Shown piece after piece: positions 11,171-30,477 of a stretch of DNA of 35,367 bases (the first letter of the stretch is position 1; each line of letters begins with the position of its first letter). The stretch comes from Alphaproteobacteria bacterium (lineage in GTDB: Bacteria; Pseudomonadota; Alphaproteobacteria; ATCC43930; CGMCC-115725). The stretch lies in NCBI GenBank assembly GCA_019238055.1, contig JAFAOB010000327.1, forward strand, positions 1 through 35,367, given 5' to 3'. Both the position numbers and the translations under genes were made by a program. Under the pieces are notes generated by a model that ran no database searches, had not been told where the DNA came from, and saw nothing but the letters and a program-made list of their open reading frames with translations.

Positions 11171-11968
11171 GTGAGCCTGCGGGTTGCCACCTGGAACATC
11201 AACTCGGTCCGGCTGCGCCTCGACAATGTCCGTCGGCTGATTGCCGAATGGACGCCGGATGTTTTGTGTCTGCAGGAAACCAAGAGCCCGAATGCGCTAT
11301 TCCCGAGCGAGGCGTTTGAGACCCTCGGCTATCGGCACCGGCTGGTGCACGGAATGAAGGGGTATAACGGGGTCGCCATCCTCTCCCGGGTACCGATCGA
11401 GACATCCGAGACCCGCAACTGGTGCGCGCGCGAGGATTGTCGTCACGCGCTCGCCGTGCTGCCCGGGGGTATCGAGTTGCACAATATCTACGTTCCGGCC
11501 GGCGGCGACATACCCGACGCGGACACCAATCCGAAATTTGCGCACAAGCTGCAATTTCTCGATGAAGTCGCCGCTTGGTTCGCCGCCAAGCGCCATGACG
11601 ATCGGCCGATGATGGCAGTCGGCGATCTGAACATCGCACCGCTCGAAGCAGATGTCTGGTCCCACAAGCAACTTTTGACGGTCGTCAGTCACACCCCGGT
11701 CGAGGTCGAGCGTCTCGGGCGGCTCCAGCAGTCGGGGGGCTTTGTCGATGTGGTGCGGTATTTCGTACCGCCGCCGGAGCGGCTTTATACGTGGTGGAGC
11801 TATCGCGCCCGCGACTGGGCCGCATCAAATCGGGGCCGGTGGCTCGACCACATCTGGGTGACGCCCGGGCTGATCGGAGAACTGGCGGAAGCGCGGGTGT
11901 TGCGCGACAGTCGCAGCTGGCCGAAAGCCTCCGACCACGTGCCCGTCATGCTGACGATCGGCAGCTGA
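11171..11968 (+). CDS. xth: Exodeoxyribonuclease III (Xth/ExoA family)
   Basis: LRVATWNINSVRLRLDNVRRLIAEWTPDVLCLQETKSPNALFP, YNGVAILSR, GDLNIAPLEADVWSHK, TWWSYRARDWAASNRGRWLDHIWVTPGL, SDHVPVML. GTG start placed where conservation begins. Confidence 0.93.
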   Translation: MSLRVATWNINSVRLRLDNVRRLIAEWTPDVLCLQETKSPNALFPSEAFETLGYRHRLVHGMKGYNGVAILSRVPIETSETRNWCAREDCRHALAVLPGGIELHNIYVPAGGDIPDADTNPKFAHKLQFLDEVAAWFAAKRHDDRPMMAVGDLNIAPLEADVWSHKQLLTVVSHTPVEVERLGRLQQSGGFVDVVRYFVPPPERLYTWWSYRARDWAASNRGRWLDHIWVTPGLIGELAEARVLRDSRSWPKASDHVPVMLTIGS

Positions 11969-12452
11969 TCCGGCGATAGAGATGATAGCGGCCGGGCATT
12001 ACACCTTCCGGCAGCGCCAAAGCAGCGAGCCTCGGGCAATCGATTGCGGGTTCGCTGACCAGCACAGCGCCGGGGCGCAGCAGCGGCAGGATCAACGGCG
12101 CAAGGGCGGCGGCGAGTGCCTGGCTGGCGGTGACATCGCCGCTTCCCGGATCGAGATGAGCGAGAGCCACCTGGCCTACGAGCCAAGCGCGCGCTGCCGG
12201 CAAGGTCTCGCGCATGTCACCGAGCAACAGGAACTTGCTGGGCGGAATGCAGCCAGGATGGGCCGCGAGATGACGCTCGCAGACAAAGATGTTGCGCTCG
12301 GGAAAGAGTTGGCGCAGATGATCGTAGGTGCGGCCGTTGCCGAGCCCGAGTTCGAGAACCGGGCCGTCAAGCCCGCGCACGAGCTCTGCCGCAAGATTGA
12401 GACAAACTCGCTGCGCCTTGAGCCGGCGGATGAAGCTGTCGAGCCGGCTCAT
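11946..12452 (-). CDS. Small class I SAM-dependent methyltransferase-like protein
   Basis: GPVLELGLGNGRTYDHLRQLFP (SAM motif I) and ALAHLDPGSGD; 3' end overlaps xth convergently. Confidence 0.7.
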   Translation of the reverse strand: MSRLDSFIRRLKAQRVCLNLAAELVRGLDGPVLELGLGNGRTYDHLRQLFPERNIFVCERHLAAHPGCIPPSKFLLLGDMRETLPAARAWLVGQVALAHLDPGSGDVTASQALAAALAPLILPLLRPGAVLVSEPAIDCPRLAALALPEGVMPGRYHLYRRISCRSSA

Positions 12453-12462
12453 TGCGCATTGA

Positions 12463-12945
12463 TCAGGCAGCGAGGCCGACCTGCTCGCGCAAGCGCTTGT
12501 TTTCGGCCGTTACCGCGCGCAGTTGGTTATTCACCGCATCGAGGCGGTGGGCCAACTCCTGCATGATTGCAACCGCGATATTGGGAAATTCGCGCACCAT
12601 TCGCATGAACGGCTCTTTCGCAATGCGTAGGGCGATAAGACGGTCCTTGGCACGGACCGTCGCGTTGCGCGGCATGTTGCATAGGATGCCCATCTCGCCG
12701 ACCGTCTCATTAGCGCCGAGCGTCGCGAGGATCACTGGCCCGGCCGACGTTTCGGCAATCACCTCGGCATGCCCGTCGATGATCAGGTAGGCGGCATCGG
12801 CAGGGTCGCCCTGGCGCACAATCACCCTGCCGGGATCGAACCCAACCCGCTCGCTCATAAACGCCAACAGCTTCAACCTGGATGGCTCGATCTCGGCGAA
12901 GAGCGGCACGCGGCGCAACAATTCGAATTCCTGTTTCAGGCTCAT
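12463..12945 (-). CDS. Stand-alone cyclic nucleotide-binding domain protein (Crp-like cNMP domain, no HTH)
   Basis: LLRRVPLFAEIEPSRLKLLAF, VIVRQGDPADAAYLIIDGHAEVI, VGEMGILCNMPRNATVRAKDRLIALRI; C-terminal short coiled coil LDAVNNQLRAVTAENKRLREQ, no helix-turn-helix. Confidence 0.85.
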   Translation of the reverse strand: MSLKQEFELLRRVPLFAEIEPSRLKLLAFMSERVGFDPGRVIVRQGDPADAAYLIIDGHAEVIAETSAGPVILATLGANETVGEMGILCNMPRNATVRAKDRLIALRIAKEPFMRMVREFPNIAVAIMQELAHRLDAVNNQLRAVTAENKRLREQVGLAA

Positions 12946-13611
12946 GACGCTCCCTCCTTTTTCTCCCGACCGCCTCTTGTCGTTCCGTCGCTGCCAAAGG
13001 CTAGCATCGGTTTCATCCAATGGCGAGTTTGGCCGGCACTCTCCGCTTCTGCAACTTGCCACTGCTGAACACGACCACATAAATGAAGTGGCGCGCAAGG
13101 CTCGCTGCTGCAGCGCTCAGATGAGCGTTGCACAACGGCCTCGCAACACCTCGCGTTGCCCCGACATTGCGCGACCGCACGGAAGCCGAGTGGCGGTCTC
13201 GCTCGTGCCAATCCGAATTTGGTCATTGCCGCGCTGGCTCCGCGCCATCATGCACAGCAAGCGTATTCGCCGCCGCCGCTCGTTTAATGACGCTACGTTG
13301 ACGCTCGATCAGCACGATAAATGACTTCGTTAGTGACACGACTCCGATCGTACTTGACGAGCAATAACTCGGACCGCAAGTTCGTCATCAGGCAAGCGTC
13401 GGCTGCATCGAGTGAAGAATGCAAAAGCCGACAGACGACGCTCAACGTCAAAGTGGGAACATCCATGGCGGAAGAGGATCCGTAATGGTCGCGGTTCATC
13501 CTGTATGCCGCAGCGGTTATACACTTGATTGTTATGGACTTCTTAAAAATGTCATTCGTAGCCGGAACGGCTCTGCAATAGTCGATCGATCAAGCCACGT
13601 GAGGTGACCTG

Positions 13612-14838
13612 ATGGCCGGCCCCCGCCACCATAAGCGCGTGCTGATCTACAGCCATGACAGCTTCGGTCTCGGCCATTTGCGCCGCTGCCGGGCGATTGC
13701 TCATTCCCTCGTAGATGCGGACCCGGCGTTGTCTGTCCTCATTTTGTCGGGCTCGCCAATCATCGGCAGCTTCGATTTCCGATCGAGGGTCGACTTCGTG
13801 CGTGTCCCCGGGGTCATCAAGCTGCGCAACGGCGAGTATGTTTCGCTCAATCTCCATATCGATATTGAGGAGACATTGGCGATGCGCTCCTCGATCATCC
13901 GTCATACAGCCGACATTTTCGACCCCGACATGCTGATCGTAGACAAAGAGCCGCTCGGCCTGCGCGGAGAGGTGCGCGACACCCTGGAGCTGCTGCAGTG
14001 CCGGCGGGCAACGGTGATCCTCGGTTTGCGCGATGTGATGGACGATCCCGAAGCGCTTGAAAGCGAATGGGAACGCAAACACGCGTTGCCGGCGCTCGCC
14101 GAATACTACGATGAGATCTGGGTCTACGGCCTGCCGCAAATCTGTGACCCGCTGGCCGGGCTCAACGTGCCGGCGAGTGTGCGGAGAAAGATGGTTTATA
14201 CCGGCTATCTGCGCCGCACCGCGAACGACGCGGTGCTGACGCCGGATTTGCAACAGATCATCGAGAAGCCGTTTTTGCTTGTCACGCCGGGCGGTGGTGG
14301 CGATGGCGACGAGCTCGTCGATATGGTGCTCGCGGCCTACGAGCAGGACCCGGACATTCCGCTGCCGGCGCTGATCGTGTTCGGTCCATTCATGGCGCCC
14401 GAGCAGCGGGTCGGCTTCGCAGCCCGGGCGGCGCGGCTGCAAAGGGTTCACGCGATCACCTTCAGCGCCCGCCTCGAAGCGCTGATTGCGCGCGCCGTCG
14501 GTGTCGTCGCGATGGGCGGCTACAACACCTTTTGCGAGATCCTGTCCTTCGACAAGCCGGCGCTGATCATGCCGCGCATCGCACCCCGACTCGAACAGCA
14601 CATCCGCGCCGCGCGCGCCGCGGAACTCGGGCTTTTGGCGATGCTGCCCGAAACCCGCAGTCGGGATCCGCAGGCCATGGCAACGGCATTGCGGCGCCTG
14701 GTCAATCAACCACCACCGTCGAGCGCGGTGATCCCGGGCTTGCTCGACGGGATGCTTAACGTAAACAGGTTGGCGAAGAAATGGCTCGACCGCGACCGCA
14801 TACCGCAGCTTGTCATGCGGGCGCGCGCCAGCCAATGA
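13612..14838 (+). CDS. Predicted glycosyltransferase (COG4671-like, GT-B/MurG-like fold)
   Basis: KRVLIYSHDSFGLGHLRRCRAIAHSL N-terminus, TPGGGGDGDELVDMVL, GVVAMGGYNTFCEILSFDKPALIMPRIAPRLEQHIRAARAAELG C-terminal donor-binding region. Confidence 0.82.
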   Translation: MAGPRHHKRVLIYSHDSFGLGHLRRCRAIAHSLVDADPALSVLILSGSPIIGSFDFRSRVDFVRVPGVIKLRNGEYVSLNLHIDIEETLAMRSSIIRHTADIFDPDMLIVDKEPLGLRGEVRDTLELLQCRRATVILGLRDVMDDPEALESEWERKHALPALAEYYDEIWVYGLPQICDPLAGLNVPASVRRKMVYTGYLRRTANDAVLTPDLQQIIEKPFLLVTPGGGGDGDELVDMVLAAYEQDPDIPLPALIVFGPFMAPEQRVGFAARAARLQRVHAITFSARLEALIARAVGVVAMGGYNTFCEILSFDKPALIMPRIAPRLEQHIRAARAAELGLLAMLPETRSRDPQAMATALRRLVNQPPPSSAVIPGLLDGMLNVNRLAKKWLDRDRIPQLVMRARASQ

Positions 14839-16139
14839 ACGAGACTGGGGCCGTCATGAATGCCCGGAAAGTCGCCTACATTCTCAAGGGGTATCCACGG
14901 CTTTCCGAAACCTTTATCGCACAGGAAATGCTGGCACTCGAACAATGCGGGCTCGGCATTCTGATCGTCTCGCTGCGTCATCCGACCGATCGTAAAGTGC
15001 ATCCGATTGCCGAAGCGATCCGCGCCGAACGGCTCTACCTTCCGGAGTACCTCTACCAGGAGCCGTTGCGCGTTTGGCGAAGCTGGCGGCAAATACGCCG
15101 CCGCAACGGCTATCGACACGCGCAACGGGCTTGGCTTGCCGATCTGCTGCGCGATCCGACGCCGAACCGGGTCCGCCGGTTCGGTCAGGCGCTGGTGCTG
15201 GCGGCCGAGCTGCCCGCCGACATCCACCACCTGCATGCTCATTTTCTGCACACCCCGGCATCCGTTGCCCGATACACAGCCCTGATGCGCGGGCTCGGCT
15301 GGACCGTCTCGGCCCATGCCAAGGACATATGGACGACGCCCGATTGGGAAAAGCGCGAAAAGCTCGGCGCGGCGCAGTGGGTGGTAACGTGCACTGCGGC
15401 CGGCCACGCCCATTTGGCGGCGCTGGCGCCGCAGCCGGAACGCATTGCGCTCTGTTATCATGGCCTCGATCTCGATCGGTTTTCGTCCCCGCCGCCGCGC
15501 TGTCAGGGGGGCGACGGGGGCGACGCCGAGCGCCCGGTCAGGCTGCTTTCCGTCGGTCGCGCGGTGGCGAAGAAGGGTTACGACGAGCTGCTCTCAGCCT
15601 TGGCGCTGCTGCCGCCCGATCTTGCGTGGCGATTGGTGCATATCGGCGGTGGGGAGCTCGCGGGAGCCTTGCGCCGGCAAGCCGAGCTTCTTGGTCTAAG
15701 CAGCCGGATCGAGTGGCGGGGTGCCTGCGCGCAGCCCGAAGTACTGGCTGCCTATCGCGCGGCCGACTTGTTTGTCCTCGCCGCCAAAGTTGCCGCCGAT
15801 GGTGACCGCGACGGCTTGCCCAATGTTCTGATGGAGGCGCAAAGCCAAGGGCTTGCTTGCATTGCGACCGATGTCTCAGGAATCCCCGAGCTGATCCGTG
15901 ACGGCGAAACGGGCATGCTGGTCCCGCCCGGCAACCCCCCGACGCTCGCGGCTGCTCTTCTAGCCTTGATCCGCGACCCGGGGCGGCGCACCGCCCTGGG
16001 CGCCGCCGGCGAGAGGCATGTCCGTCAATCCTTCTCGATGACGTCCGGCATCGATATGCTCGCGCGGCGCTTCGGACTGACGCCGGAAAAGACCGCCACC
16101 GAAGTTAGAGGGGCACGCGAGCCGGTCGCGGCCGGTTAG
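14835..16139 (+). CDS. Glycosyltransferase family 4 (WcaL/colanic-acid-type)
   Basis: KVAYILKGYPRLSETFIAQEMLALEQCGLGILIVSLRHPTD, HLHAHFLHTPASVARY, SVGRAVAKKGYDELL, GLPNVLMEAQSQGLACIATDVSGIPELIRDGETGMLVPPGN. ATGA overlap with the upstream gene. Confidence 0.9.
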   Translation: MNETGAVMNARKVAYILKGYPRLSETFIAQEMLALEQCGLGILIVSLRHPTDRKVHPIAEAIRAERLYLPEYLYQEPLRVWRSWRQIRRRNGYRHAQRAWLADLLRDPTPNRVRRFGQALVLAAELPADIHHLHAHFLHTPASVARYTALMRGLGWTVSAHAKDIWTTPDWEKREKLGAAQWVVTCTAAGHAHLAALAPQPERIALCYHGLDLDRFSSPPPRCQGGDGGDAERPVRLLSVGRAVAKKGYDELLSALALLPPDLAWRLVHIGGGELAGALRRQAELLGLSSRIEWRGACAQPEVLAAYRAADLFVLAAKVAADGDRDGLPNVLMEAQSQGLACIATDVSGIPELIRDGETGMLVPPGNPPTLAAALLALIRDPGRRTALGAAGERHVRQSFSMTSGIDMLARRFGLTPEKTATEVRGAREPVAAG

Positions 16140-16150
16140 CTCGCGATACC

Positions 16151-17257
16151 ATGCGCATCGCCTTTTACGCGCCGTTGAAGCCGCCAGATCATCCGGTACC
16201 GTCGGGCGACCGGCGGGTCGCTCAGCTGTTCTTTGAAGCGCTGCAATTGGCCGGACATCATCCCGTATTAGCGTCACGGCTGCGCAGCTTCGAGGGGCGG
16301 GGTGACCAATTTCGACAGGCAAGGCTTGCCGGCATTGGCGGGCGGCTCGCGGATCGTGCCCTGAGTCGCTGGCGTGCCGCGCCGGCCGCCGCACCGGAAC
16401 TGTGGTTTACTTATCATATCTATCACAAGGCACCCGACTGGCTCGGGCCGCGGATTTCGACCGAACTCGGAATCCCCTACGTTATCGCCGAGGCGTCATT
16501 TGCGCCAAAGCGCGCGAATGGGCCGTGGGCGCAGGGTCACCGCGCCGCGGAACAGGCGATCCGGCGTGCCGACGCGGTGATCGGGCTGAACCCGGTGGAT
16601 CGCGCTTGCGTGCTGTCGTTGCTTGTCGAACCGGCGCGCTGGCTGGGAATCAAGCCGTTTGTCGATGCGGCCGATTTCACACCGCGACCGGCCAAGGATG
16701 GCCCTCCGCTTCGGCTGATCACGGCGGCGATGATGCGCCACGGCGATAAGCTGGTTTCCTATCGGGTTCTCGGTGCGGCGCTGACCAACTTGCTCGATCT
16801 CGATTGGACGCTTGAAGTTATCGGGGACGGTGCCGCTCGGGCTGAGGTCATGACGGCACTCGCCCCGCTTCATAGCCGGCTCGTGTTGGCGGGGAGGCTC
16901 GACCCCGACACAACGGCGCGCCGCCTCGCAGCCGCCGATCTCTATGTATGGCCGGCGATCAACGAGGCCTTTGGCATGGCATTGCTCGAAGCACAGGCAA
17001 GCGGATTGCCGGTGGTTGCTGGCGCCAGTGGCGGCGTCGCCGAAATTGTAGCGCATCAAATGACCGGATTGCTGGTACAGCCGGGAGATCCAGCGGCCTT
17101 TGCTGCGGCCGTCCGGCAGCTCATCACCGATGTCGCGCTCCGCCGACGGTACGCCGCGGCGGCGCGGCGGCGGGTGCTGGTCGAGCATGATCTGCCCGCG
17201 GCGGCCGCACGCCTTGGCGTCGTCATCGACACGCTGCACTTGGCAAATGCCGCATAA
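16151..17257 (+). CDS. Glycosyltransferase family 4
   Basis: MRIAFYAPLKPPDHPVPSGDRRVAQLFFEALQLAGHH, LVLAGRLDPDTTARRLAAADLYVWPAINEAFGMALLEAQASGLPVVAGASGGVAEIV (EX7E-type). Confidence 0.88.
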   Translation: MRIAFYAPLKPPDHPVPSGDRRVAQLFFEALQLAGHHPVLASRLRSFEGRGDQFRQARLAGIGGRLADRALSRWRAAPAAAPELWFTYHIYHKAPDWLGPRISTELGIPYVIAEASFAPKRANGPWAQGHRAAEQAIRRADAVIGLNPVDRACVLSLLVEPARWLGIKPFVDAADFTPRPAKDGPPLRLITAAMMRHGDKLVSYRVLGAALTNLLDLDWTLEVIGDGAARAEVMTALAPLHSRLVLAGRLDPDTTARRLAAADLYVWPAINEAFGMALLEAQASGLPVVAGASGGVAEIVAHQMTGLLVQPGDPAAFAAAVRQLITDVALRRRYAAAARRRVLVEHDLPAAAARLGVVIDTLHLANAA

Positions 17258-17284
17258 CCATTCGAGCCCGCCTGGCAGGGTCCG

Positions 17285-18478
17285 ATGAGCGGGTCAGTGC
17301 TGTTCTATGTCCAACACGTGCTCGGGATCGGGCATCTGCGGCGCGCGCTTCATCTTGTCAACGGAATGGCGCAGGAGGGTCTCGCCGTAACCCTGATCAC
17401 TGGTGGCGAACCGATGCCCGAACTCGTCAGCGCCAAGGCCCGAGCTGTCGTACAGCTGCCGCCACTGCGAGCGACCGATGCCAGCTTCCGCAACCTCGTC
17501 GGCCTTGATGGCCAGCCTGCCGACGAGACCTTGTGGTCAGAGCGCCGCGAGATGCTGCTCGCCGCCTTGGCCAAAACCATGCCCGACACCGTATTGATCG
17601 AGGGCTACCCGTTCGCCCGCCGCGCCTTCCGGCGCGAGTTGGAGCCGTTGATTGCCGCCGCTCGGGCGCGCCGGCCTCGACCCGAAATATTGTGCTCGCT
17701 GCGCGACATCATCGTCCCCCCGCGCGAAGAGAAGCGCGCACAGGAGATCGTCGATAGTATCCGTGCCAATTTTGACGCGGTTTTGGTCCATGGCGATCCG
17801 CGGTTGATCAGGCTGGAAGAAAGCTTTCCGCTCGCTTCGGAAATCGCCGACCGGCTGGTTTATACGGGTTATGTCGCAGCACCCGAGCCGGCAACCCGCG
17901 ACACCGGCAATGCCGGTACGGGTGAGGTTCTGGTTTCGGCCGGCGGCGGTGCTGTCGGCGGTGCCTTGATGCGGGCCGCACTCGCGGCAAGGCGGCACGG
18001 CTGTCTCGCAGTTGCCAATTGGCGGATCCTGACCGGACCCAATCTGCCGGCAGCCGAATTTGCGGAATTAGCGGCGGATGTGCCACAAGGCGTCATCATC
18101 GAGCGCTATCGCAGCGATTTCGCAGACATGTTGCGGCGCTGCCGGGTTTCGGTCAGTCAGGCTGGATATAATACGGTTCTCGACATCATTGGCGCCCGCA
18201 TCCCGGCGGTGCTGGTGCCGTTTGCCGAGGAGCACGAGACCGAGCAAACCTTGCGAGCCGAGCGGCTGGCGGCATGCGGTGTCATTGAGATGTTGCCGGC
18301 TGCGGCGCTCTCGCCGGAGCGGCTAGCCGAGGCGATCGAGCGGGTGGCTCAACGTCCTCCCTCAGTGCTCGAACTCGACACGGCGGGGGCGCACTGTACC
18401 GCGATTAGAATTGCTCGGATGATCGCAAATCGGACGAGGTCAGAACCGGATCCAGAAAATTATCGTTCCGGCGGGTGA
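17285..18478 (+). CDS. Predicted glycosyltransferase (COG4671-like), paralogue of 13612-14838
   Basis: VLFYVQHVLGIGHLRRALHLVNGMAQEG, ICSLRDII-type segment CSLRDIIVPPREEKRAQEIVDSI, VSAGGGAVGGALM, VSQAGYNTVLDIIGARIPAVLVPFAEEHETEQTLRAERLAACGV. Confidence 0.82.
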   Translation: MSGSVLFYVQHVLGIGHLRRALHLVNGMAQEGLAVTLITGGEPMPELVSAKARAVVQLPPLRATDASFRNLVGLDGQPADETLWSERREMLLAALAKTMPDTVLIEGYPFARRAFRRELEPLIAAARARRPRPEILCSLRDIIVPPREEKRAQEIVDSIRANFDAVLVHGDPRLIRLEESFPLASEIADRLVYTGYVAAPEPATRDTGNAGTGEVLVSAGGGAVGGALMRAALAARRHGCLAVANWRILTGPNLPAAEFAELAADVPQGVIIERYRSDFADMLRRCRVSVSQAGYNTVLDIIGARIPAVLVPFAEEHETEQTLRAERLAACGVIEMLPAAALSPERLAEAIERVAQRPPSVLELDTAGAHCTAIRIARMIANRTRSEPDPENYRSGG

Positions 18479-18493
18479 CTAAAGGCTCGGTCG

Positions 18494-19318
18494 ATGATAA
18501 CTGTTCCCGACAGCCCAGCCCCTGGATCGACACATTGGACCGATCTCGGGTATGAATTGAACCGCTGGGAGGAGGAAGGGAGGACCGCAACGCTGTGGTG
18601 GCGTGACGATGACGCAGTGGCGCCCTCTCGCCGGCTCGACGATTTGCTGACCGTCGCCGGCGCGGTCCCTGTTTCTCTGGCCGTTATCCCGGCAAACGCA
18701 GAACCGGCGCTCGCCGGCTGGCTTGAACGACACGCATCGCCTTCGGTCCGCGTCCTGCAGCATGGGTATCGGCATGCCAACCATGCTTCAGCGGTGAAAA
18801 AGAGCGAGTTTCCAAATTCGCGCCCGCGCGAAACGGTTAAGACTGATTTGGCGCTCGGGCGGGCACGGTTGGCTGAATTGTTCGGACCACGTGCTCTCGC
18901 CGTGTTGGCGCCACCGTGGAACCGCTTCGACGACTCGTTCCTGCCGCTCCTCGCCGAAATCGGCATCCGTGGCATTTCAAAGATCAAGGCCCGCTTCTCG
19001 GCTTATCCTGAGCCGGGGGTTTTCGAAGCCAACGTGCATGTCGATCTTGTCTCCTGGCGCACCGATCGAGGCTTTGTTGGCGAGGCGGCGGCGCTCGGCG
19101 GGCTAGTCGCGCATTTGAGAGCGCGCCGGAGCGGCAATGCCGATCCCGACGAGCCGACCGGGCTGTTGACCCACCATCTCGTGCAAGACGAGGCGAGCAG
19201 CACCTTTCTCGCCCGATTGATCAGCCTGACGCGCAATCATCCGGCGGCGCGCTGGCTCGATGCCGACGCAGTTTTCGCATCGGCGGATGCCAAGTCGGCG
19301 ACCAGGGGCCAGGCGTGA
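18494..19318 (+). CDS. Polysaccharide deacetylase (NodB-like) family protein
   Basis: TLWWRDDDAVAPSRRLDDLL (Asp-Asp), LQHGYRHANHA (His motif), LAPPWNRFDDSFLPLLAEIGIRGISK. Confidence 0.72.
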   Translation: MITVPDSPAPGSTHWTDLGYELNRWEEEGRTATLWWRDDDAVAPSRRLDDLLTVAGAVPVSLAVIPANAEPALAGWLERHASPSVRVLQHGYRHANHASAVKKSEFPNSRPRETVKTDLALGRARLAELFGPRALAVLAPPWNRFDDSFLPLLAEIGIRGISKIKARFSAYPEPGVFEANVHVDLVSWRTDRGFVGEAAALGGLVAHLRARRSGNADPDEPTGLLTHHLVQDEASSTFLARLISLTRNHPAARWLDADAVFASADAKSATRGQA

Positions 19319-19830
19319 CCCGCCATAGCTATCCGAGTTCGGCGATGATCGGCGACTATCTGCGCGCCACCGCCGGGTTCTGCCCGGCGGTGGCGATCCT
19401 GGCGAGCGCGTCGGTCGGCCCGGTCGCGACTGCGGTATTTGTCAGTATTGCTGCGCTGTTCGCACTATTCGGGCTGCGCACCGGGCTGCGCCATGCAACC
19501 CGGTTCGAAGCGACCGAAACCGGGCTGTCCGCCCTGGGACCGCTCGCAGCAACCATTTTATGGGCCGAACTCGATCGTATGGAGCTCGCCTATTATTCGA
19601 CCCGGCGCGATCGCCGCGATGGCTGGATGCAGCTTGAGCTGCGTGCCGGCACTTCATCGATCCGCCTCGACAGCCGGGTTGATGGATTTGAACAGCTGGT
19701 CGAGCGCTCGGCGCTTGCCGCTGCGCTGCGCGGTATCGAGTTAAGCTCCACGACCGCCGCCAATCTGCAGGCGCTCGGGCTCAGAACGTCCGGTTTTTAC
19801 GGTGCAAGCGCGGCGGAGGGCCGGGCGTGA
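19315..19830 (+). CDS. Hypothetical membrane protein, two predicted TM helices plus beta-rich (PH-like?) domain
   Basis: 171 aa; GTG start overlaps the deacetylase stop (GTGA) and its stop overlaps the ABC ATPase start (GTGA). Hydrophobic AVAILASASVGPVATAVFVSIAALFALFGL. Confidence 0.65.
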   Translation: MTRHSYPSSAMIGDYLRATAGFCPAVAILASASVGPVATAVFVSIAALFALFGLRTGLRHATRFEATETGLSALGPLAATILWAELDRMELAYYSTRRDRRDGWMQLELRAGTSSIRLDSRVDGFEQLVERSALAAALRGIELSSTTAANLQALGLRTSGFYGASAAEGRA

Positions 19831-21731
19831 GCGATCTGCTCACCATACGCGATCTTCACATACGTTTTGCCGCACCGGGCGGCTTTATCCACGCGGTTAG
19901 AGGCGCCTCATTTCGGGTGCGGCCGCGTTCGACGGTGGCCTTGGTCGGCGAATCCGGTTCAGGAAAGTCTGTCGTCAGCCAGGCGATCATGCGCATCCTG
20001 CCGCGCAACGGGGAGATTACGCAGGGCAATATCCTCTTCAATGACCCGCGCGGCGCCGGCACCACGGTCGACCTCGCACGATTGCCGGCCAACAGCCTTG
20101 AGATGCGGGCAATTCGTGGCGGCCGCATCTCGATCATTTTCCAGGAGCCGATGACGTCGCTGTCGCCGCTTCACACGGTCGGCAATCAGGTCGGTGAGGC
20201 CTTGCGGCTGCATCGCAGGGTCGGTTCGGCAGAAGCTGTCGAATTGACCCAGGAGATCTTGCGCCTCGTTGGTTTCCCCGATCCACATCGGGCACTGAGA
20301 AGCTATCCATTCGAGCTGTCGGGGGGATTGCGACAGCGCGCGATGATCGCCATGGCGCTGGTCTGCCGCCCGGCGCTGTTGATCGCTGACGAGCCGACCA
20401 CCGCGCTCGATGTGACCATCCAGGCGCAGATCCTGAAGCTGATACTCGAATTACAGCACGAGCTCGGCATGGCGGTGCTGCTGATCACCCACGACCTCGG
20501 TGTGGTCGCCAATGTCGCCGAAGAAATCGTCGTCATGTATCGCGGCGAAGTCGTCGAAAGCGGCACCCTTCACGATATTTTCCGCCAGCCGGAGCATCCT
20601 TATCTGCGCGCCCTGTTGCGCGCGGTGCCGCGCTTCGACATGAAGCCCGGGGAGCGTCTGATGCCGATCCGCGAGATCGCATCCGGTGATGCACCGCATC
20701 TAATGGCGAAAAAAGCGCAATGGCCGGCAGGATATTCGGGGCCACTGCTTGAATGCCGGGGGTTGCACAAATCATTCACGATCCGCAAGGCTGGGATTTT
20801 CGGCAGTGGCCGGGCAGCGGCGCGGGTGATTGCGGTCGATGACGTAAGCCTAAAGATCGAACGGGGCGAATGCCTCGGCTTGGTCGGCGAGAGTGGGTGC
20901 GGCAAGACCACTTTGAGCAAGATATTGCTGCGGGCGGTCGAGCCAGACGTGGGATCGATCACCTTCAACGATCACGGCAAGCAAATCGACGTGCTGGCGC
21001 TCGAAGGCGATCGGCTCAAGCAGTTTCGGCGTCAGGTGCAATTCATATTTCAGGACCCGTTTGGGTCATTAAACCCACGCATGACGGTGTTCGACATCGT
21101 CGAGGAGCCGCTGGCGATCCATGGCATCGGCGATGCCCGCTCGCGCCGCGGGATCGTTGAGGAACTGGTCGAACTGGTCGGTCTTAATCGCCATCATCTG
21201 CGCCGATACCCACACAGCTTCTCAGGCGGTCAGCGGCAGCGCATCGGCATCGCTCGCGCGCTGGCGCTGCGGCCCGATCTCGTGGTCTGCGACGAGCCAA
21301 CCTCGGCGCTAGACGTCTCGATCCAGGCACAGATTCTCAATCTGCTGATGGATCTAAAGCAGAAACTTGGACTGACCTATCTGTTTATTTCCCACAACCT
21401 CGCAGTCGTCGATTACATCGCCGACCGCATTGCTGTGATGTGCGCTGGTCGCATCGTCGAGACTGCAGACCGCGCCACCTTGTTCCGCGCGCCGGTGCAT
21501 CCGTATACGCAGGCGCTGTTGGCGGCGGTCCCGACCCCCGATTTGGCGCAGCGGCTCGATTTCCGGCGGCTGATGGAAGACCGCGCCTCCGACCCCGGCG
21601 CGTGGCCAGAACCATTCCGCCGTGAACGGGCCAAACCGCTCGGGTTGTTTGAGGTGGCGCCAGGCCATGTTGTCGAAGCACGAGCGATGCCGACACTACC
21701 GGTGCGCGCGGGTGGGCTCGCCCGCGCGTGA
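19827..21731 (+). CDS. Duplicated ABC transporter ATP-binding protein, oligopeptide/YejF type
   Basis: Two nucleotide-binding domains: [15 protein letters not shown] / [15 protein letters not shown] / [12 protein letters not shown] and [14 protein letters not shown] / [15 protein letters not shown] / [19 protein letters not shown] and [12 protein letters not shown] oligopeptide-family C-termini. Confidence 0.93.
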
Positions 21732-21747
21732 CCGCGGAGCTGCAAAC

Positions 21748-23730
21748 ATGGAAGATCACGATGTTGGTCGGCGCAATAGGAGACTGACCCGACGCTCGTT
21801 CAACAGCACGTTGCTTCTGGGAGGGGTGTTAGCGTCGTTCCCAGACATCGCGTGGGCCGAGGTTTCGCCATCGGAAACACCATTTTTTGCTAAAAAGATT
21901 GCTGCGGGCGCCCTACCCAATGTCGCCGCCCGGGTGCCGGCGGAGCCTGCTGTGGTCGACTCGTCGGGCAAACCCGGCGGCGAATTGCGCATATTGATGG
22001 CGACCCCGAAGGACACCCGAATGATGGTGGTCTACGGCTACGCCCGGCTGGTGTCTCTGACACCGGAGCTGAAATTCATGCCCGACATCCTAAAGGCGAT
22101 CGATATAGAGGGCGCACGCATCTTCACCTTGCACCTGCGCAAGGGAATGAAATGGTCCGACGGCCACCCGTTTACGACCGAGGATTTCCGCTACTGGTTC
22201 GAAGACATCGCGGGCAACAAGAAATTGACGCCCTCCGGCCTGCCGGTCGAACTGGTGCCGGGTGGCGACAAGCCGCGGTTCGAGGTTATGGATGAGACCA
22301 CAGTGCGTTACAGCTGGTCGCGCCCGAACCCGCTGTTTGTACCCCAGATTGCCGGTCCCGACCCGCTCTTCATTTATGCCCCCGCTCACTACCTTAAGCA
22401 GTTCCACGCGAAATATGCCGATAAAGCCAAGCTCACCGCCATGATCAAACAGGCGGGGGTGCGGAATTGGGCGGTGCTGCACTTTCGCCACAGTGGAATG
22501 TACAAAAACGACAACCCGGATTTGCCGAGTTTAGAGCCGTGGATTCTGAAAACCAAACCGCCAGCGGAGCGGTTTATCTTTGAACGCAATCCTTATTATT
22601 ACCGGGTTGACAAGTCAGGCAATCAGCTTCCCTATATAGATCAGGTGATCATGTCGCTGGCCGATTCGCGCATCATCTCGGCCAAGACTGCGGCTGGCGA
22701 AAGCGATCTGCAGGCACGCTATTTGAGCTTTGACAATTATACGTTTTTGCGCCAGGGCGAGGACCGCAATCACTACAACGTACGGCTATGGCGGACCGGG
22801 CCCGGCAGCCAGTTCGCGCTTTACCCCAATCTTAACGTCCAGGATCCGGTATGGCGTGGGCTGCTGCGCGACGTACGCTTTCGGCGCGCCTTGTCGCTTG
22901 CCGTCAATCGCCACGAACTCAATGAGGTGATCTACTTTGGCTTGGCGATCGAAGGGCAGAACACGCTGCTGCCACAAAGCCCGCTTTACGAAGCCGCCCA
23001 TCGCCAAGCCTGGGCGCAGTATGATCCGGGTGAGGCCAATCGCTTGCTCGATCTGATCGGGCTGACCAAGCGCGGCAGCGATGACGTTCGGCTACTGCCC
23101 GACGGCCGGCTGATGGAGATCATCGTCGAATATTCGGGCGAACTGCCCGAGGAACCCGATGTTCTCGAGTTGATCCGCGACTCGTGGCGCCACATCGGGA
23201 TCAGGCTCTTCGCCAAGCCGGCGCAGCTGACCCTGTTTCGGCGGCGCGTGTTTTCCGGCGAAACATTAATGTCGCTTGACAAGGGGATCGAGAACGGTCT
23301 CGCCAATGCGGCGGCGTCGCCGTGGGAATTTGCTCCCACATCGCAGCAGGAACTCGAATGGCCAAAATGGGGCCAATATTACGAAACCAAAGGCGAGGCC
23401 GGCGAACCGCCGGATCTGCCGTCCGCGGTCAAGCTCCGCGATCTGTTTAACCAGTGGCTTGACACCGCCGCAGAGGACAAGCAGCGCGCCATTTGGCACG
23501 ACATCCTGCAAATATGGGCCGATGAAGTGTTTTCGATCGGTACCGTTGGCGGCGTATTGCAACCCGTCGTGGTCAACGATAAATTGCGCAATATCCCGGA
23601 AAAAGGGATCTACAATTGGGATCCCGGAGCCTTTTTCGGCATCTACAAGCCAGATCATTTCTGGTTCGAGACCGGTGCGCCGGCAAAATCGGCGTCCATT
23701 GGCGCCGAGCCCACAGCAGCGAACCCTTGA
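21748..23730 (+). CDS. ABC transporter substrate-binding protein, peptide/oligosaccharide (SBP_bac_5) family, Tat signal
   Basis: RRLTRRSFNSTLLLGG twin-arginine signal; LHLRKGMKWSDGHPFTTEDFRYWFEDI, DVRFRRALSLAVNRHELNEVIYFGLA typical of the family. Confidence 0.88.
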   Translation: MEDHDVGRRNRRLTRRSFNSTLLLGGVLASFPDIAWAEVSPSETPFFAKKIAAGALPNVAARVPAEPAVVDSSGKPGGELRILMATPKDTRMMVVYGYARLVSLTPELKFMPDILKAIDIEGARIFTLHLRKGMKWSDGHPFTTEDFRYWFEDIAGNKKLTPSGLPVELVPGGDKPRFEVMDETTVRYSWSRPNPLFVPQIAGPDPLFIYAPAHYLKQFHAKYADKAKLTAMIKQAGVRNWAVLHFRHSGMYKNDNPDLPSLEPWILKTKPPAERFIFERNPYYYRVDKSGNQLPYIDQVIMSLADSRIISAKTAAGESDLQARYLSFDNYTFLRQGEDRNHYNVRLWRTGPGSQFALYPNLNVQDPVWRGLLRDVRFRRALSLAVNRHELNEVIYFGLAIEGQNTLLPQSPLYEAAHRQAWAQYDPGEANRLLDLIGLTKRGSDDVRLLPDGRLMEIIVEYSGELPEEPDVLELIRDSWRHIGIRLFAKPAQLTLFRRRVFSGETLMSLDKGIENGLANAAASPWEFAPTSQQELEWPKWGQYYETKGEAGEPPDLPSAVKLRDLFNQWLDTAAEDKQRAIWHDILQIWADEVFSIGTVGGVLQPVVVNDKLRNIPEKGIYNWDPGAFFGIYKPDHFWFETGAPAKSASIGAEPTAANP

Positions 23731-23802
23731 GGTTTGACCACGCGCTCACGCTGCTGTTGACCCCGACAACCCGCCCGCGTACGACATCCAAAACTTCGGT
23801 AC

Positions 23803-23831
23803 CCTGTACTTGCCGCGGCAAGCACGACAGG
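23803..23831 (+). promoter_or_regulatory. Intercistronic hairpin between the SBP and permease genes
   Basis: CTTGCCGCGGCAAG perfect 14-bp palindrome (23809-23822) flanked by CCTGT (23803-23807) / ACAGG (23827-23831). Confidence 0.5.
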
Positions 23832-23840
23832 ATTAGCCTG

Positions 23841-24839
23841 ATGCTCCGGTACATTATCCATCGCATCCTGATCATGATCCCGACTTTGGTCGCGATTAGT
23901 ATTGTTATATTTACGATAATCAATCTGCCTCCTGGCAACTATTTCACGACCTACATCGCCGAGCTGGAGGGCTCGGGGCAAAAAGCCGATCTCGCTAAGA
24001 TCGAATTCCTCGAAAAGGAGTACGGCTTTGATCGCCCGCGATGGCAGCAATATCTCTATTGGGTCGGCGGCCTGTTACATGGCGATCTCGGATATTCGTT
24101 CTCCTATGATCTGCCAGTCAATAAAGTAGTCGGAGACCGTCTACTTTTGACTGCAGTCGTCTCGATCACTACAATTATTTTTACCTATGTCGTGGCATTT
24201 CCGATCGGTATCTACTCCGCAACACATCAGTATAGTATAAGCGACCACCTACTGACCTTACTGGGCTTTCTCGGCCTGGCGACGCCGAGTTTTTTGTTGG
24301 CGCTGGTGCTGCTGTATTTTGCGAACGTGTATTTTGGGATCTCGATCGGCGGCTTGATGGACCCGAAATACCTCGATCAGCCGTGGAGCTGGGGCAAGGT
24401 CCTATCGCTGATGGCGCATATTTGGATTCCGGTGATCGTCATCGGCTCGGCGGGAACCGCTGCCATGATCCGGCGGCTGCGCGCCAATCTGCTTGACGAG
24501 CTGCAAAAGCAATATGTCGTGACCGCGCGCGCCAAAGGCCTGCACCCGCTCCGGGCACTCTTCAAGTACCCGCTGCGGATGGCCCTGAACCCGTTCATTT
24601 CCGACATCGGATCATTGCTGCCGCAGGTGATTTCCGGGGCGGCGATCGTTTCGGTCGTCATGTCGCTGCCGACGACCGGGCCAATGCTGCTTAGCGCATT
24701 GCGCAGTCAAGACATGTACCTGGCCGGCTCGTTTCTAATGTTTATGTCGTTTCTGACGGTGATTGGCGTGTTTGTGTCCGACCTCGCCTTGGCGTTGCTC
24801 GACCCGCGAATTCGGCTGCAGGCAGGGCGCCGGCAATGA
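23841..24839 (+). CDS. ABC transporter permease (DppB/OppB/YejB type)
   Basis: MLRYIIHRILIMIPTLVAISIVIFTIINLPPGN; RRLRANLLDELQKQYVVTARAKGLHPLRALFKYPLRMAL EAA-type loop. Confidence 0.9.
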   Translation: MLRYIIHRILIMIPTLVAISIVIFTIINLPPGNYFTTYIAELEGSGQKADLAKIEFLEKEYGFDRPRWQQYLYWVGGLLHGDLGYSFSYDLPVNKVVGDRLLLTAVVSITTIIFTYVVAFPIGIYSATHQYSISDHLLTLLGFLGLATPSFLLALVLLYFANVYFGISIGGLMDPKYLDQPWSWGKVLSLMAHIWIPVIVIGSAGTAAMIRRLRANLLDELQKQYVVTARAKGLHPLRALFKYPLRMALNPFISDIGSLLPQVISGAAIVSVVMSLPTTGPMLLSALRSQDMYLAGSFLMFMSFLTVIGVFVSDLALALLDPRIRLQAGRRQ

Positions 24840-26047
24840 GCGATCTGACCTTTGTTCCGGGGCCAGAGCACAGTCCGGCCGGTGACCTCGCCGAACCGGT
24901 ACCGCTTCCGCACTACGTCTCCAGGGCGCCCTATGATCCCTATGCCGTCGAGCGGATGACGGCGGCGCAAGAACGGTTTTATGTCGCCTCGCAATGGCGC
25001 ATGGTATGGTGGAAGTTGTGCCGCCACCGCGTTGCCGTTGCGTCCGGCGCAATACTGCTCGCAATGTATATCGGGATCACAATTTGCGAGTTTCTTGCCC
25101 CTTACGGGATGGATACCCGCAATACCGACTTCATCTATGCCCCGCCGCAGCCGGTTCACATCTTCTCTCACGGCCATCTCGTCGCACCTTATGTGCTCGG
25201 CTTCGACTACCGGCTCGATATGAAGCGGCTGGAGCGGATTTACACGCCAGATCCGGAGAAGCGTCAGCCGATACGCTTTTTCTGCCGAGGTGACGAATAC
25301 AAGTTTTGGGGACTGTTCCCGGGCAATCTCCATCTTGCTTGCCCAGCTCATGGCGGCCAGTTGTTTCTGCTGGGCACCGACCGGCTTGGCCGGGACCTGA
25401 TGTCGCGGATGATCTATGGAGCACGCGTCTCATTGACGGTCGGGCTTGTTGGCGTCGCGGTCAGCCTGACTCTTGGAATCGTCATCGGCGGCATTGCCGG
25501 CTATTACGGTGGATGGACCGACATCCTGATCCAGCGGGCGATGGAGGTGATCCAATCCTTTCCGCATTTGCCGCTGTGGATGGCGTTATCGGCGATCTTG
25601 CCGGTCAGCTGGAGCCCGCTGTTCGTCTATTTCGGGATCACGCTGATCCTGGGGATGATCGACTGGACGCATCTGGCGCGCGCGGTGCGCTCCAAATTGC
25701 TGGCCTTGCGTGAGGAAGATTTCTGCACCGCCGCGGTGCTGATGGGCGCACGACCGGTGCGCATCATCGGCCGCCATTTGCTGCCGAGCTTTTCGAGCCA
25801 CCTGATCGCCTCGGCCACGCTGATGGTTCCCGGCATGATACTCGGCGAGACGGCGCTGTCGTTTCTCGGGCTTGGGGTGCGGCCACCGATGACCAGTTGG
25901 GGCGTGCTACTGAGCGATGCGCAGAATATCAATGTCGTAGCGCTATATCCCTGGCTGATGGCGCCGGTCGCGACCGTGATCGTCGCCGTGCTCGCCTTCA
26001 ACTTTTTTGGGGATGGATTGCGCGACGCTGCCGATCCCTATCATTGA
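24836..26047 (+). CDS. ABC transporter permease (DppC/OppC/YejE type)
   Basis: LLGTDRLGRDLMSRMIYGARVSLTVGLVGVAVSLTLGIVIGGIAGYYGGWTD; ARAVRSKLLALREEDFCTAAVLMGARPVRIIGRHLLPS; ATGA overlap with the upstream gene. Confidence 0.92.
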   Translation: MSDLTFVPGPEHSPAGDLAEPVPLPHYVSRAPYDPYAVERMTAAQERFYVASQWRMVWWKLCRHRVAVASGAILLAMYIGITICEFLAPYGMDTRNTDFIYAPPQPVHIFSHGHLVAPYVLGFDYRLDMKRLERIYTPDPEKRQPIRFFCRGDEYKFWGLFPGNLHLACPAHGGQLFLLGTDRLGRDLMSRMIYGARVSLTVGLVGVAVSLTLGIVIGGIAGYYGGWTDILIQRAMEVIQSFPHLPLWMALSAILPVSWSPLFVYFGITLILGMIDWTHLARAVRSKLLALREEDFCTAAVLMGARPVRIIGRHLLPSFSSHLIASATLMVPGMILGETALSFLGLGVRPPMTSWGVLLSDAQNINVVALYPWLMAPVATVIVAVLAFNFFGDGLRDAADPYH

Positions 26048-26073: not shown

Positions 26074-26904
26074 TCAGGGATGCAACACGAGCCCTTCATG
26101 GGCGACGATCGTGCCAGGCCGTGTCACCTCGGCCTCGGCCGCGACCCCATCCATAAAGGCGTCGTCATGACCGGGATCGTGGTGAAAGATCACCAACCTA
26201 CGCACGCCAGCGGCGTCAGCCAACCGCACCCCTTCCTGCCAGGTGGAATGGCCCCAATCCTTGTGCTGGGGGAATTCCGCATCAGTATAGGTCGCATCGT
26301 AAATCATTAGATCCGCCCGTTTGACCAAGGCCAGGATGTTGCGGTCGAGGCCTTCGGGGCGATGCTCAGTGTCGGTAATGTAGGCGACAACTTTGCCGGC
26401 AAATTCGATGCGGTAACCGGTGGCACCGTTTGGATGATTGAGTGGCCCGGTTGCGATGTCGATCCCGCTGTGCGGCGACAGTCTGTCCCCGGCGCCAAAA
26501 TCGTGAAATTCGATCTGAGCTGTGAAGATCCCCATTGGGATTGGAAACAGCGGCTCGATCATCATGTCCTCGAGCACGGTCTTGATTCCGCGCCCGTTAA
26601 GATGACCAGCCCATATGCGGATCCTGCTACGCGAATCATAGCATGGCGCAAAAAACGGCAGCCCGCAGATGTGGTCAAAATGTGTGTGGCTATAGAAAAG
26701 GTCCAACTCCGCCGGCTGTTCCGCCTGCATCAACTCGTTGCCCAAAAGACGCAAGCCGGTGCCGCCGTCAAACACCATGAGGTGGTTGCCGCAACGCATC
26801 TCGACACAAGACGTATTGCCGCCGTAACGCACCGTATCCGGGCCTGGGCAGGCGATGCTGCCGCGCACGCCCCAAAACCGCACCGTAAATTCCGGCTTGG
26901 CCAA
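26074..26904 (-). CDS. MBL-fold metallo-hydrolase
   Basis: FWGVRGSIACPGPDTVRYGGNTSCVE, YSHTHFDHICGLPFF (HxHxDH), VAYITDTEH, LMIYDATYTD, IFHHDPGHDD. Confidence 0.88.
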   Translation of the reverse strand: MAKPEFTVRFWGVRGSIACPGPDTVRYGGNTSCVEMRCGNHLMVFDGGTGLRLLGNELMQAEQPAELDLFYSHTHFDHICGLPFFAPCYDSRSRIRIWAGHLNGRGIKTVLEDMMIEPLFPIPMGIFTAQIEFHDFGAGDRLSPHSGIDIATGPLNHPNGATGYRIEFAGKVVAYITDTEHRPEGLDRNILALVKRADLMIYDATYTDAEFPQHKDWGHSTWQEGVRLADAAGVRRLVIFHHDPGHDDAFMDGVAAEAEVTRPGTIVAHEGLVLHP

Positions 26905-27340: not shown

Positions 27341-28408
27341 TCACGAGTTGGCGCGCTGACGGGGCCGAAGCATTCCGGCAACGTGATCGATTGCAGCGTA
27401 ATAGGCGACGGAAGCGGCAATAGCATGGCGGCCGAGACACGCCTCGGTGAATTTGATCACGTGCTCGTCGCCGTTTTCGATTGCGTGGTCGATCAGCTGG
27501 CGTTCGCTTCTTTCGCAAGGCTCGACCAAGTCGGCGAAAGCGGTACCGCTGCCGTAGCAGGCGTAGAGCGCGCAGCCGCTTTGCCAAGCGTAGCGCAGTG
27601 CGGTGCGCGCCGTGCCTTCGCCGATGTGAGGGACAATGTGTCCGAGAGCCGCAGGGCTGGTCACTGCGTGAATGAAAGCGATCGTCGTTGGTATATCGCG
27701 GGCATTCGCCAGATAGACCCGCGCAAACAACTCGGTCATTTCGGCGATTTGCGACGCTGTCGGCCGCTCGGTGGTGACCCAGCCGATGATCGGTGCGAAC
27801 CACGGCATGTCATCGAGGATCGCGAGTGCTGTGACAATATTGCCAGGGCGGCGCTGGCCAGGCGGAACGGTCGGGACACGCATGATCGCTTCGCGCGGCG
27901 CCAGGGGTTCTGGCAGCCGGCGGTTGTCTTCCGGCAACCGCTGCCAGGTCGCTGCCCAGCTCGCGAGCGCGTCGGCCAGCTCGCGGCGCCGGCTCGGCGT
28001 CTCGGCTTCGGCAAGCCCGCGCACTGCATGCCCGACGCGGATCACGCCATGCGTCGCCGCGGCGCAAAATCCGGGAGCGAGCCGTTCAACCCAGTGATCG
28101 AGCACGGTTTGCCATGCGGCTTGCCCGATCTCGTTGCGAAAGAACAACGCCCAGTCGGTGAAGCGCTCACGGTGCCCGAGCATATCACGCCAATCGTCGC
28201 TGCGAATTAGCTCGCCCGCCGGCGGACGCGGCCGCATTCGGTCGCGATAGCGTGCGAGCCAAGGCATCACCGCCTCGGGACGCCCGAGCGCGCATAGCGC
28301 CTCAGCAACCATCGGTGCATGGTTGGTATTGCCGTTATCCAGCGCGATCCCGTAGGGTGTCATTGCGTCGAGCGCGTCGTCATATGACGAATAGCACGGC
28401 GTAAGCAT
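27341..28408 (-). CDS. Questin oxidase family protein (DUF4243-like)
   Basis: 355 aa with YGIALDNGNTNHAPMVAEAL, DWRDMLGHRERFTDWALFF, GFCAAATHGVIRVGHAVRGL, HAVTSPAALGHIVPHI pattern of questin-oxidase-like proteins. Confidence 0.7.
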   Translation of the reverse strand: MLTPCYSSYDDALDAMTPYGIALDNGNTNHAPMVAEALCALGRPEAVMPWLARYRDRMRPRPPAGELIRSDDWRDMLGHRERFTDWALFFRNEIGQAAWQTVLDHWVERLAPGFCAAATHGVIRVGHAVRGLAEAETPSRRRELADALASWAATWQRLPEDNRRLPEPLAPREAIMRVPTVPPGQRRPGNIVTALAILDDMPWFAPIIGWVTTERPTASQIAEMTELFARVYLANARDIPTTIAFIHAVTSPAALGHIVPHIGEGTARTALRYAWQSGCALYACYGSGTAFADLVEPCERSERQLIDHAIENGDEHVIKFTEACLGRHAIAASVAYYAAIDHVAGMLRPRQRANS

Positions 28409-29346: not shown

Positions 29347-30477
29347 CTAGCCGGCAACCGCGACGCCGATCAGCCGGCCGACGCCAAAAGTGATACCGGC
29401 CGCCGCAAGACCGACGACCAGCTGACGCGCCCCTGAAAACCAAACACTCCGGCCGGTGAACAGCGACGTACCAGCCCCGAGCAGGAACAAGGCGGCACTG
29501 CTCGCAGCCAAGCTTGCTGCTAGTGCCGGCATTCCGCCAAAGCCAAAATAGGGCGCCACCGGAAAGATCGCGCCGATGGCAAAAAGCATGAAGGATGTGC
29601 CGGAAGCGGCCCAGGCCGACCCGCCGAGCTCCTCGGGATCGACCCCCAATTCCTCGCGGACCAGCGTGTCGAGGGCGGTCTTCTTGTTGGCAATCAATTG
29701 CTTGGCCAGAGTCCTCGCAAGCTCTTCAGGCAGCCCCTTCGCCTGGTAGATCAGCGCCAGCTCCTCCTCTTCTTCTTCCGGGACCTGCTCCAATTCGTCG
29801 GCTTCGGTATTGATCTGGCGTTGCGCCGACTCGCGCGCGGTGTTGACCGACAGCCATTCGCCGAGCGCCATCGAACACGAGCCCGCGAGCAGACCGGCGA
29901 TCCCGGTGACGAGTATGGCATGCGGCGCCAAATCCGCACCCGCTACCCCCATTACGAGACTGAGATTGGAGACGAGCCCGTCATTGGCGCCGAGCACGGC
30001 GGCACGCAATGCATTGCCGCCGTGCCCACGATGGCGGCCTTCGAGCCGCGCCAGAGTGGCGCCGGTGAATGCCGTCGGCGAGGGTGCAGCGAGCGCCTTG
30101 ATGATCCGCGCGTGCGAGCGCTCTGTCGCCGGAAGCCCGCCCGCTACCGCCTCGGGTTGGGTGGAATAGGAGCCGCTGTCCAGGTGCTCGAGGGTGTTGA
30201 CTGTCGGCAATACGAAGGCCGGACCAAATCGGCGCGCGAGCCAAGCGAGAGCTCGGGTGCGAAACCCGGGACGCAATCTTGGGACATGCTGCCCCAGGGC
30301 TGCGATCTGTTTCTTCCAAAATTCCGCATGCGCCGACTCGACCGCCGCGAGGCGACTGTAGACCTGCGCCAGCTGCGGGTTCTTTTCGGTCTCGGATAAC
30401 GTTTTATAGAGTTCGGCGCTGTCGATTTCGCCTTGAAGGTTCGCGGTATAGCGCTGTTGGGAACCTGGTTCGGCCAT
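29347..30477 (-). CDS. mbfA: Membrane-bound ferritin-like/VIT1 family iron transporter (MbfA-like)
   Basis: N-terminal ferritin-like helices (EIDSAELYKTL...LAAVESAHAEFWKKQIAAL; GLPATERSHARIIKAL), then VIT1/CCC1 domain NALRAAVLGANDGLVSNLSLVMGVAGAD...LAGSCSMALGEWLSVNTARE. Confidence 0.8.
   Translation of the reverse strand: MAEPGSQQRYTANLQGEIDSAELYKTLSETEKNPQLAQVYSRLAAVESAHAEFWKKQIAALGQHVPRLRPGFRTRALAWLARRFGPAFVLPTVNTLEHLDSGSYSTQPEAVAGGLPATERSHARIIKALAAPSPTAFTGATLARLEGRHRGHGGNALRAAVLGANDGLVSNLSLVMGVAGADLAPHAILVTGIAGLLAGSCSMALGEWLSVNTARESAQRQINTEADELEQVPEEEEEELALIYQAKGLPEELARTLAKQLIANKKTALDTLVREELGVDPEELGGSAWAASGTSFMLFAIGAIFPVAPYFGFGGMPALAASLAASSAALFLLGAGTSLFTGRSVWFSGARQLVVGLAAAGITFGVGRLIGVAVAG

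Follow-up and report, generated by a model that had tools for sequence, protein, structure and literature searches.

A conserved proteobacterial gene module joins glycan-synthesis genes to an Opp-type ABC importer

The glycan-synthesis genes and the ABC importer genes that lie side by side in the window (the whole 35,367-nucleotide stretch of alphaproteobacterial DNA analysed here) constitute one real, widespread conserved module. The cluster spans positions 13612–26047 and comprises ten ORFs, all open and all on the + strand (Table 1). Read directly from the sequence, the glycan genes are joined by an ATGA overlap at 14835 followed by gaps of 11, 27 and 15 bp, while GTGA overlaps at 19315 and 19827 connect the deacetylase gene to MP171 and MP171 to the ATPase gene. 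Within the importer portion, a 16-bp gap precedes the binding-protein gene at 21748, a 110-bp gap precedes the first permease gene at 23841, and the two permease genes share an ATGA overlap at 24836. The ten same-strand genes with these overlaps and gaps match the initial annotation base for base, and profile searches identify four glycosyltransferases (two GT28-C-like, two GT4) and a complete ABC importer, while the NodB-like deacetylase and the membrane protein gave no firm family match. A promoter and terminator scan of the cluster returned promoter-like sites no more commonly than chance.

Table 1. Cluster genes and recurrent or remnant features in the window; locus counts refer to the 66 long cluster loci.
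Feature	Position	Strand	Basis and occurrence
SAM methyltransferase	11946–12452	−	PF12692; 21/66 loci, rearranged ones included; recurrent partner
Stand-alone cyclic-nucleotide-binding protein	12463–12948	−	PF00027; 30/66 loci; recurrent exporter partner
3′ remnant of deleted linked ABC exporter	12950–13124	−	DNA match and weak protein match
GTa, GT28-C/COG4671-like glycosyltransferase	13612–14838	+	Sub-threshold Glyco_tran_28_C match; 65/66 loci
GTb, GT4 glycosyltransferase, EpsE/WcaL-like	14835–16139	+	Profile search; 60/66 loci
GTc, GT4 glycosyltransferase	16151–17257	+	Profile search; 50/66 loci
GTd, GT28-C glycosyltransferase, distant GTa paralog	17285–18478	+	56/66 loci
NodB-like (CE4-type) deacetylase, cytoplasmic, no signal peptide seen	18494–19318	+	Motif residues; ortholog annotation
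MP171 (171 aa), two membrane helices and predicted PH-like domain	19315–19830	+	Structure model
Importer double ATPase, GsiA/OppDF type	19827–21731	+	Profile search
Cluster-C solute-binding protein, twin-arginine signal, SPH1118/MelB-like	21748–23730	+	SBP_bac_5; sequence and structure comparison
OppB-type permease	23841–24839	+	Profile search
OppC-type permease, long insertion past first membrane helix	24836–26047	+	Profile search
Metallo-beta-lactamase-fold hydrolase	26074–26904	−	PF12706; 13/66 loci; probable accessory partner

Seeding with the deacetylase family across 84,980 genomes recovers at least 558 relatives, and of 47 long loci drawn from the best 80, 40 hold three or all four of the importer genes and 3 hold none. 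These loci extend over Alpha-, Beta- and Gammaproteobacteria and display several gene orders; those of the gammaproteobacteria, Azospirillum and the rhizobia are quite unlike and nonetheless retain the importer. In a few loci (L063, L081) no importer is linked to the glycan genes. The neighbourhood maps rest on mechanical ORF calling and therefore include antisense ORFs and under-count module members. Approached from the importer side, a binding-protein seed in 397 genomes separates orthologs at ~46–54% identity from paralogs at 29–33%, and glycan genes occur at 24 of 27 ortholog loci versus 0 of 11 paralogous importer loci (Fisher 3e-7, a value that ignores species phylogeny). Three binding-protein orthologs, L168, L170 and L188, have no other importer or glycan genes nearby.

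Analysis of 61 relatives reveals that the same ten-gene order recurs in related genomes. GTa and the binding protein are both present in 23 of these, both absent from 37, and GTa stands alone in a single incomplete genome, corresponding to co-presence in 23/24 cluster-bearing relatives. Their distances correlate in a mirror-tree comparison (r 0.88, shared species ancestry included in the value). The boundary between the glycan and importer genes, formed by MP171 and the ATPase, preserves a 4-bp NTGA overlap in 24 of 38 loci, and 0 of 66 long loci hold any of the genes that flank the module in the window (FtsK, LolA, glutamine amidotransferase, questin-oxidase-like and VIT). Two of the flanking genes, a questin-oxidase-like gene at 27341–28408 and a gene at 29347–30477 for a VIT1 transporter with a fused rubrerythrin domain, are unrelated to the module. 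Because the linkage is kept in varied gene orders while the flanks differ, the coupling is no accident of one genome. Both seedings, the co-presence and the flank controls together uphold, as a conserved module, the initial proposal that the glycan and importer genes form one coupled unit; the neighbourhood analysis named there as a possible refutation finds glycan and ABC genes usually together. A mobile element or single-genome island is ruled out, the cluster being conserved throughout the family and beyond.

The importer belongs to the Opp/Dpp type (PepT family), with profile searches identifying an SBP_bac_5 binding protein, two BPD_transp_1 permeases (OppB/OppC) and ATPases with oligo_HPY tails. 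Sequence comparison puts T. maritima OppA 5IPW and Sphingomonas SPH1118 closest to the binding protein. Its best structural match is SPH1118 (Z 37.9, 2.0 Å, 588 residues, 28% identity), followed by T. maritima OppA and then by MelB with raffinose, melibiose and galactinol. SPH1118 was likewise annotated as peptide-binding, yet binds pectin oligosaccharides (PMC9314435). Although the importer is annotated as peptide-type, its binding protein most resembles proteins that bind pectin and galactosides; the ligand is thus probably an oligosaccharide, and the importer is more likely an oligosaccharide than a peptide carrier. The stacking tryptophan W594 of SPH1118 corresponds to W624 here, conserved in 28/31 members, and the galacturonate-binding R57 is replaced by V94, with the R438 position variable. 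Pectin as the exact ligand gains no support from this residue mapping, R57 and R438 not being conserved. Compared with the cluster-C Opp/Dpp importers (SPH1118, MelB and T. maritima OppA 5IPW), the system shares the binding-protein fold and size and the permease and ATPase families, but its binding protein forms a branch of its own (mean column identity 60% over 31 members; paralogs 29–33%) in which the main galacturonate arginines of SPH1118 are replaced, and its genetic tie is to glycan synthesis rather than catabolism. A Cnt-like opine-type metallophore export/import system, raised by NikD/CntD-like ATPase scores, was rejected, because the importer is linked to glycosyltransferases and such scores are usual for Opp ATPases in tandem.

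In most relatives, a divergent gene adjoining GTa encodes an MsbA-like ABC exporter of ~930 residues, followed by the stand-alone cyclic-nucleotide-binding protein and then the PF12692 methyltransferase. The exporter, linked or not, is found in 23/24 cluster-bearing relatives and in 11/11 outside genomes tested, Thalassospira included; there it is unlinked and, as in further genomes that lack a linked copy, lies elsewhere. Three genomes (G000, G002 and G005) lack the linked exporter and keep the importer. G002 and G005 belong to the same genus and retain the rest of the module, and no exporter at all was found in G005, whose assembly is possibly fragmented. The linked exporter was lost in the lineage of the window. 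Window DNA 11324–13124 matches positions 4–1811 of locus L149 in sister genome G007, covering the exporter 3′ end, and G007 holds an intact exporter exactly between the genes that flank the deletion in the window; the remnant also gives a weak protein match to exporter residues 900–922 (E 0.005). The interval 12950–13611 is the scar of the deleted gene. Absence of an exporter, initially noted for the cluster, is true of the window only and is no trait of the system; it reflects a lineage-specific loss where most relatives have an adjacent ABC exporter. True absence from this genome is also ruled out: the exporter forms two paralogous lines, and contig C507 carries a copy that falls with full support in the unlinked B line and is not the linked copy. 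This unlinked paralog probably replaces the linked exporter here. Decay of the cluster after the loss is ruled out, the genes being intact and under purifying selection (pN/pS 0.11–0.41 versus a sister genome).

The relatives' exporter shares the ABC_membrane plus ABC_tran half-transporter layout of MsbA/PglK-type glycolipid ABC exporters, but differs in its length of ~930 aa and in an ATPase domain split by a ~300-residue insertion, and it scores far under the MsbA and PglK cut-offs (193.6 bits against the NCBIfam MsbA equivalog, cut-off 602). In L030:14877–17687 and its relatives, Pfam ABC_tran covers only residues 420–527, the domain remainder lying at ~825–926, and the insertion repeats an NLLFG-like stretch, an unusual exporter architecture.

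The deacetylase-like protein contains equivalents of the CE4 Asp-His-His metal site and catalytic motifs. In an alignment of ten diverse orthologs with motifs assigned by eye, the CE4-equivalent positions D38–D40, H90, H94, P141–W142, D184, W188 and H227 are invariant, and annotated orthologs are named polysaccharide deacetylase. Profile search returned only a weak DUF2334 match below cut-off, and comparison of the sequence with solved structures gave no match. The cluster resembles nodulation-factor modules in placing a signal-peptide-free NodB-like deacetylase beside glycosyltransferases and an exporter, but it has neither NodC nor NodA, its transferases are of the GT-B type, and the deacetylase sequence is too distant for the Pfam polysaccharide deacetylase model. 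MP171 has no family match in profile searches. Its model (pLDDT 93.4) places two membrane helices before a PH-like domain, and structure comparison returned chiefly PH and FERM domains, with scores (Foldseek E>0.001, VIA Z up to 7.8) that suggest a PH-like fold but do not settle it.

Several accessory genes recur around the module in addition to those in Table 1. The hydrolase encoded beyond the second permease gene may belong to the system. A histidine phosphatase occurs in 35/66 long loci and a Methyltransf_24 enzyme in 25 loci, while a class III nucleotide cyclase is found in 27 module loci, in at least three different positions, beside the stand-alone cyclic-nucleotide-binding protein (for example L082:6078–7463, L087:17250–18602 and L144:1959–3302). 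A nucleotide-sugar dehydrogenase is present in 8 rhizobial-type loci, and a DUF3095 protein (L176:16119–17297) recurs in six rhizobial-type loci. The metallo-beta-lactamase-fold hydrolase is also seen near the rearranged module loci L173 and L178–L181.

Like Wzx/Wzy and ABC-2 exopolysaccharide loci, the cluster combines several cytoplasmic glycosyltransferases with a modifying enzyme in one apparent operon. It differs from them in that flippase, polymerase, copolymerase, ABC-2 exporter and initiating phosphoglycosyltransferase were not found, an importer standing in their place. The initially reported lack of Wzx, Wzy and an initiating phosphoglycosyltransferase holds for the ten genes and the flanking genes scanned.

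Taken as a whole, these features are tentatively explained by a conserved cell-envelope glycan module whose product is made, exported and taken back. The four cytoplasmic glycosyltransferases would assemble a short oligosaccharide or glycoconjugate, which the NodB-like enzyme would partly N-deacetylate and which linked enzymes would dephosphorylate and methylate in many relatives. The MsbA-like ABC exporter would carry the glycan outward, here probably via the unlinked paralog, and the Opp-type importer, whose binding protein falls within the oligosaccharide-binding part of cluster C, would recapture the glycan or a fragment of it. The combination of a PH-like membrane protein, a cyclic-nucleotide-binding protein and a frequent cyclase suggests that cAMP or cGMP may regulate the module at the membrane, a reading that gene content leaves evenly balanced. 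That the importer's ligand is the module's own product is a possibility we advance with reserve. No glycoside hydrolase that could free fragments was identified in the cluster, which counts against recapture, as do the missing galacturonate-binding arginines, the few loci whose glycan genes lack a linked importer, and the equal closeness of T. maritima OppA, which has no known ligand complex. A more specific version is a widespread, undescribed circuit that makes, exports and recaptures a small modified glycan, with a dedicated importer bringing the cell's own product back and the cyclase and cyclic-nucleotide-binding protein setting the flux. It is unlikely in that complete form; the circuit's glycan would perhaps be a signal or an osmotic or envelope sugar.

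Persistence of the importer where the linked exporter was lost is compatible with recapture, and fits at least as well a supply of acceptor, in which an imported oligosaccharide, either the cell's own envelope fragment or an external one, is extended by the four transferases and the product exported. An imported acceptor would account for the lack of an initiating phosphoglycosyltransferase gene in the cluster and its scanned neighbourhood, and the overlap joining the last glycan gene to the ATPase gene is in keeping with it. Action of four transferases on a free imported oligosaccharide would nevertheless be unusual, and a lipid whose synthesis genes lie at another locus could serve as acceptor just as well, leaving acceptor import doubtful.

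The nearest characterised relative of the binding protein imports pectin (PMC9314435, PMC7055323), and the module resides in rhizobial hosts, consistent with uptake of an external acidic or galactose-type oligosaccharide, such as plant cell wall fragments, as nutrient or signal, the glycan genes being co-regulated without sharing its substrate. In R. johnstonii 3841 the module extends from RL_RS29990 to RL_RS30035 on pRL11, and the adjacent nucleotide-sugar dehydrogenase is probably pRL110056, placed by gene count from the published anchors pRL110007, pRL110043 and pRL110044, a gene reported to be important for root colonisation (PMC11103875). This phenotype favours uptake from plants as a lead from a neighbouring gene, not as proof for the module. 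The S. meliloti capsule genes smb20804/20805 could not be tied to the module as the same locus. External uptake is rather improbable, however, as marine and groundwater bacteria that live far from plants carry the module too, the cluster has no degradative enzymes, and co-regulation alone would hardly preserve linkage across so many rearrangements. That an ordinary peptide transporter merely sits beside unrelated glycan genes through common ancestry, as the oligopeptide/nickel-type labels given to the importer by Pfam and NCBIfam might imply, is scarcely credible and already contradicted by the importer-seeded and flank tests, given joint conservation in differing gene orders across three classes while all other neighbours vary and paralogous importers are never linked to glycan genes.

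Literature searches for this gene combination returned no description, in agreement with the initial statement that no characterised system matches, and as far as shown the conserved glycan-importer module is built from known families and is undescribed in the literature searched. Its carriers include hundreds of proteobacterial species, model rhizobia and Azospirillum among them, in which annotation gives the genes only generic glycosyltransferase and peptide-transporter labels. Should the module's own glycan be what the importer carries, some peptide-type importers would be partners in glycan synthesis, and a surface sugar would be tied to cyclic-nucleotide signalling. The presence of the module in genetically tractable hosts makes these proposals directly testable.
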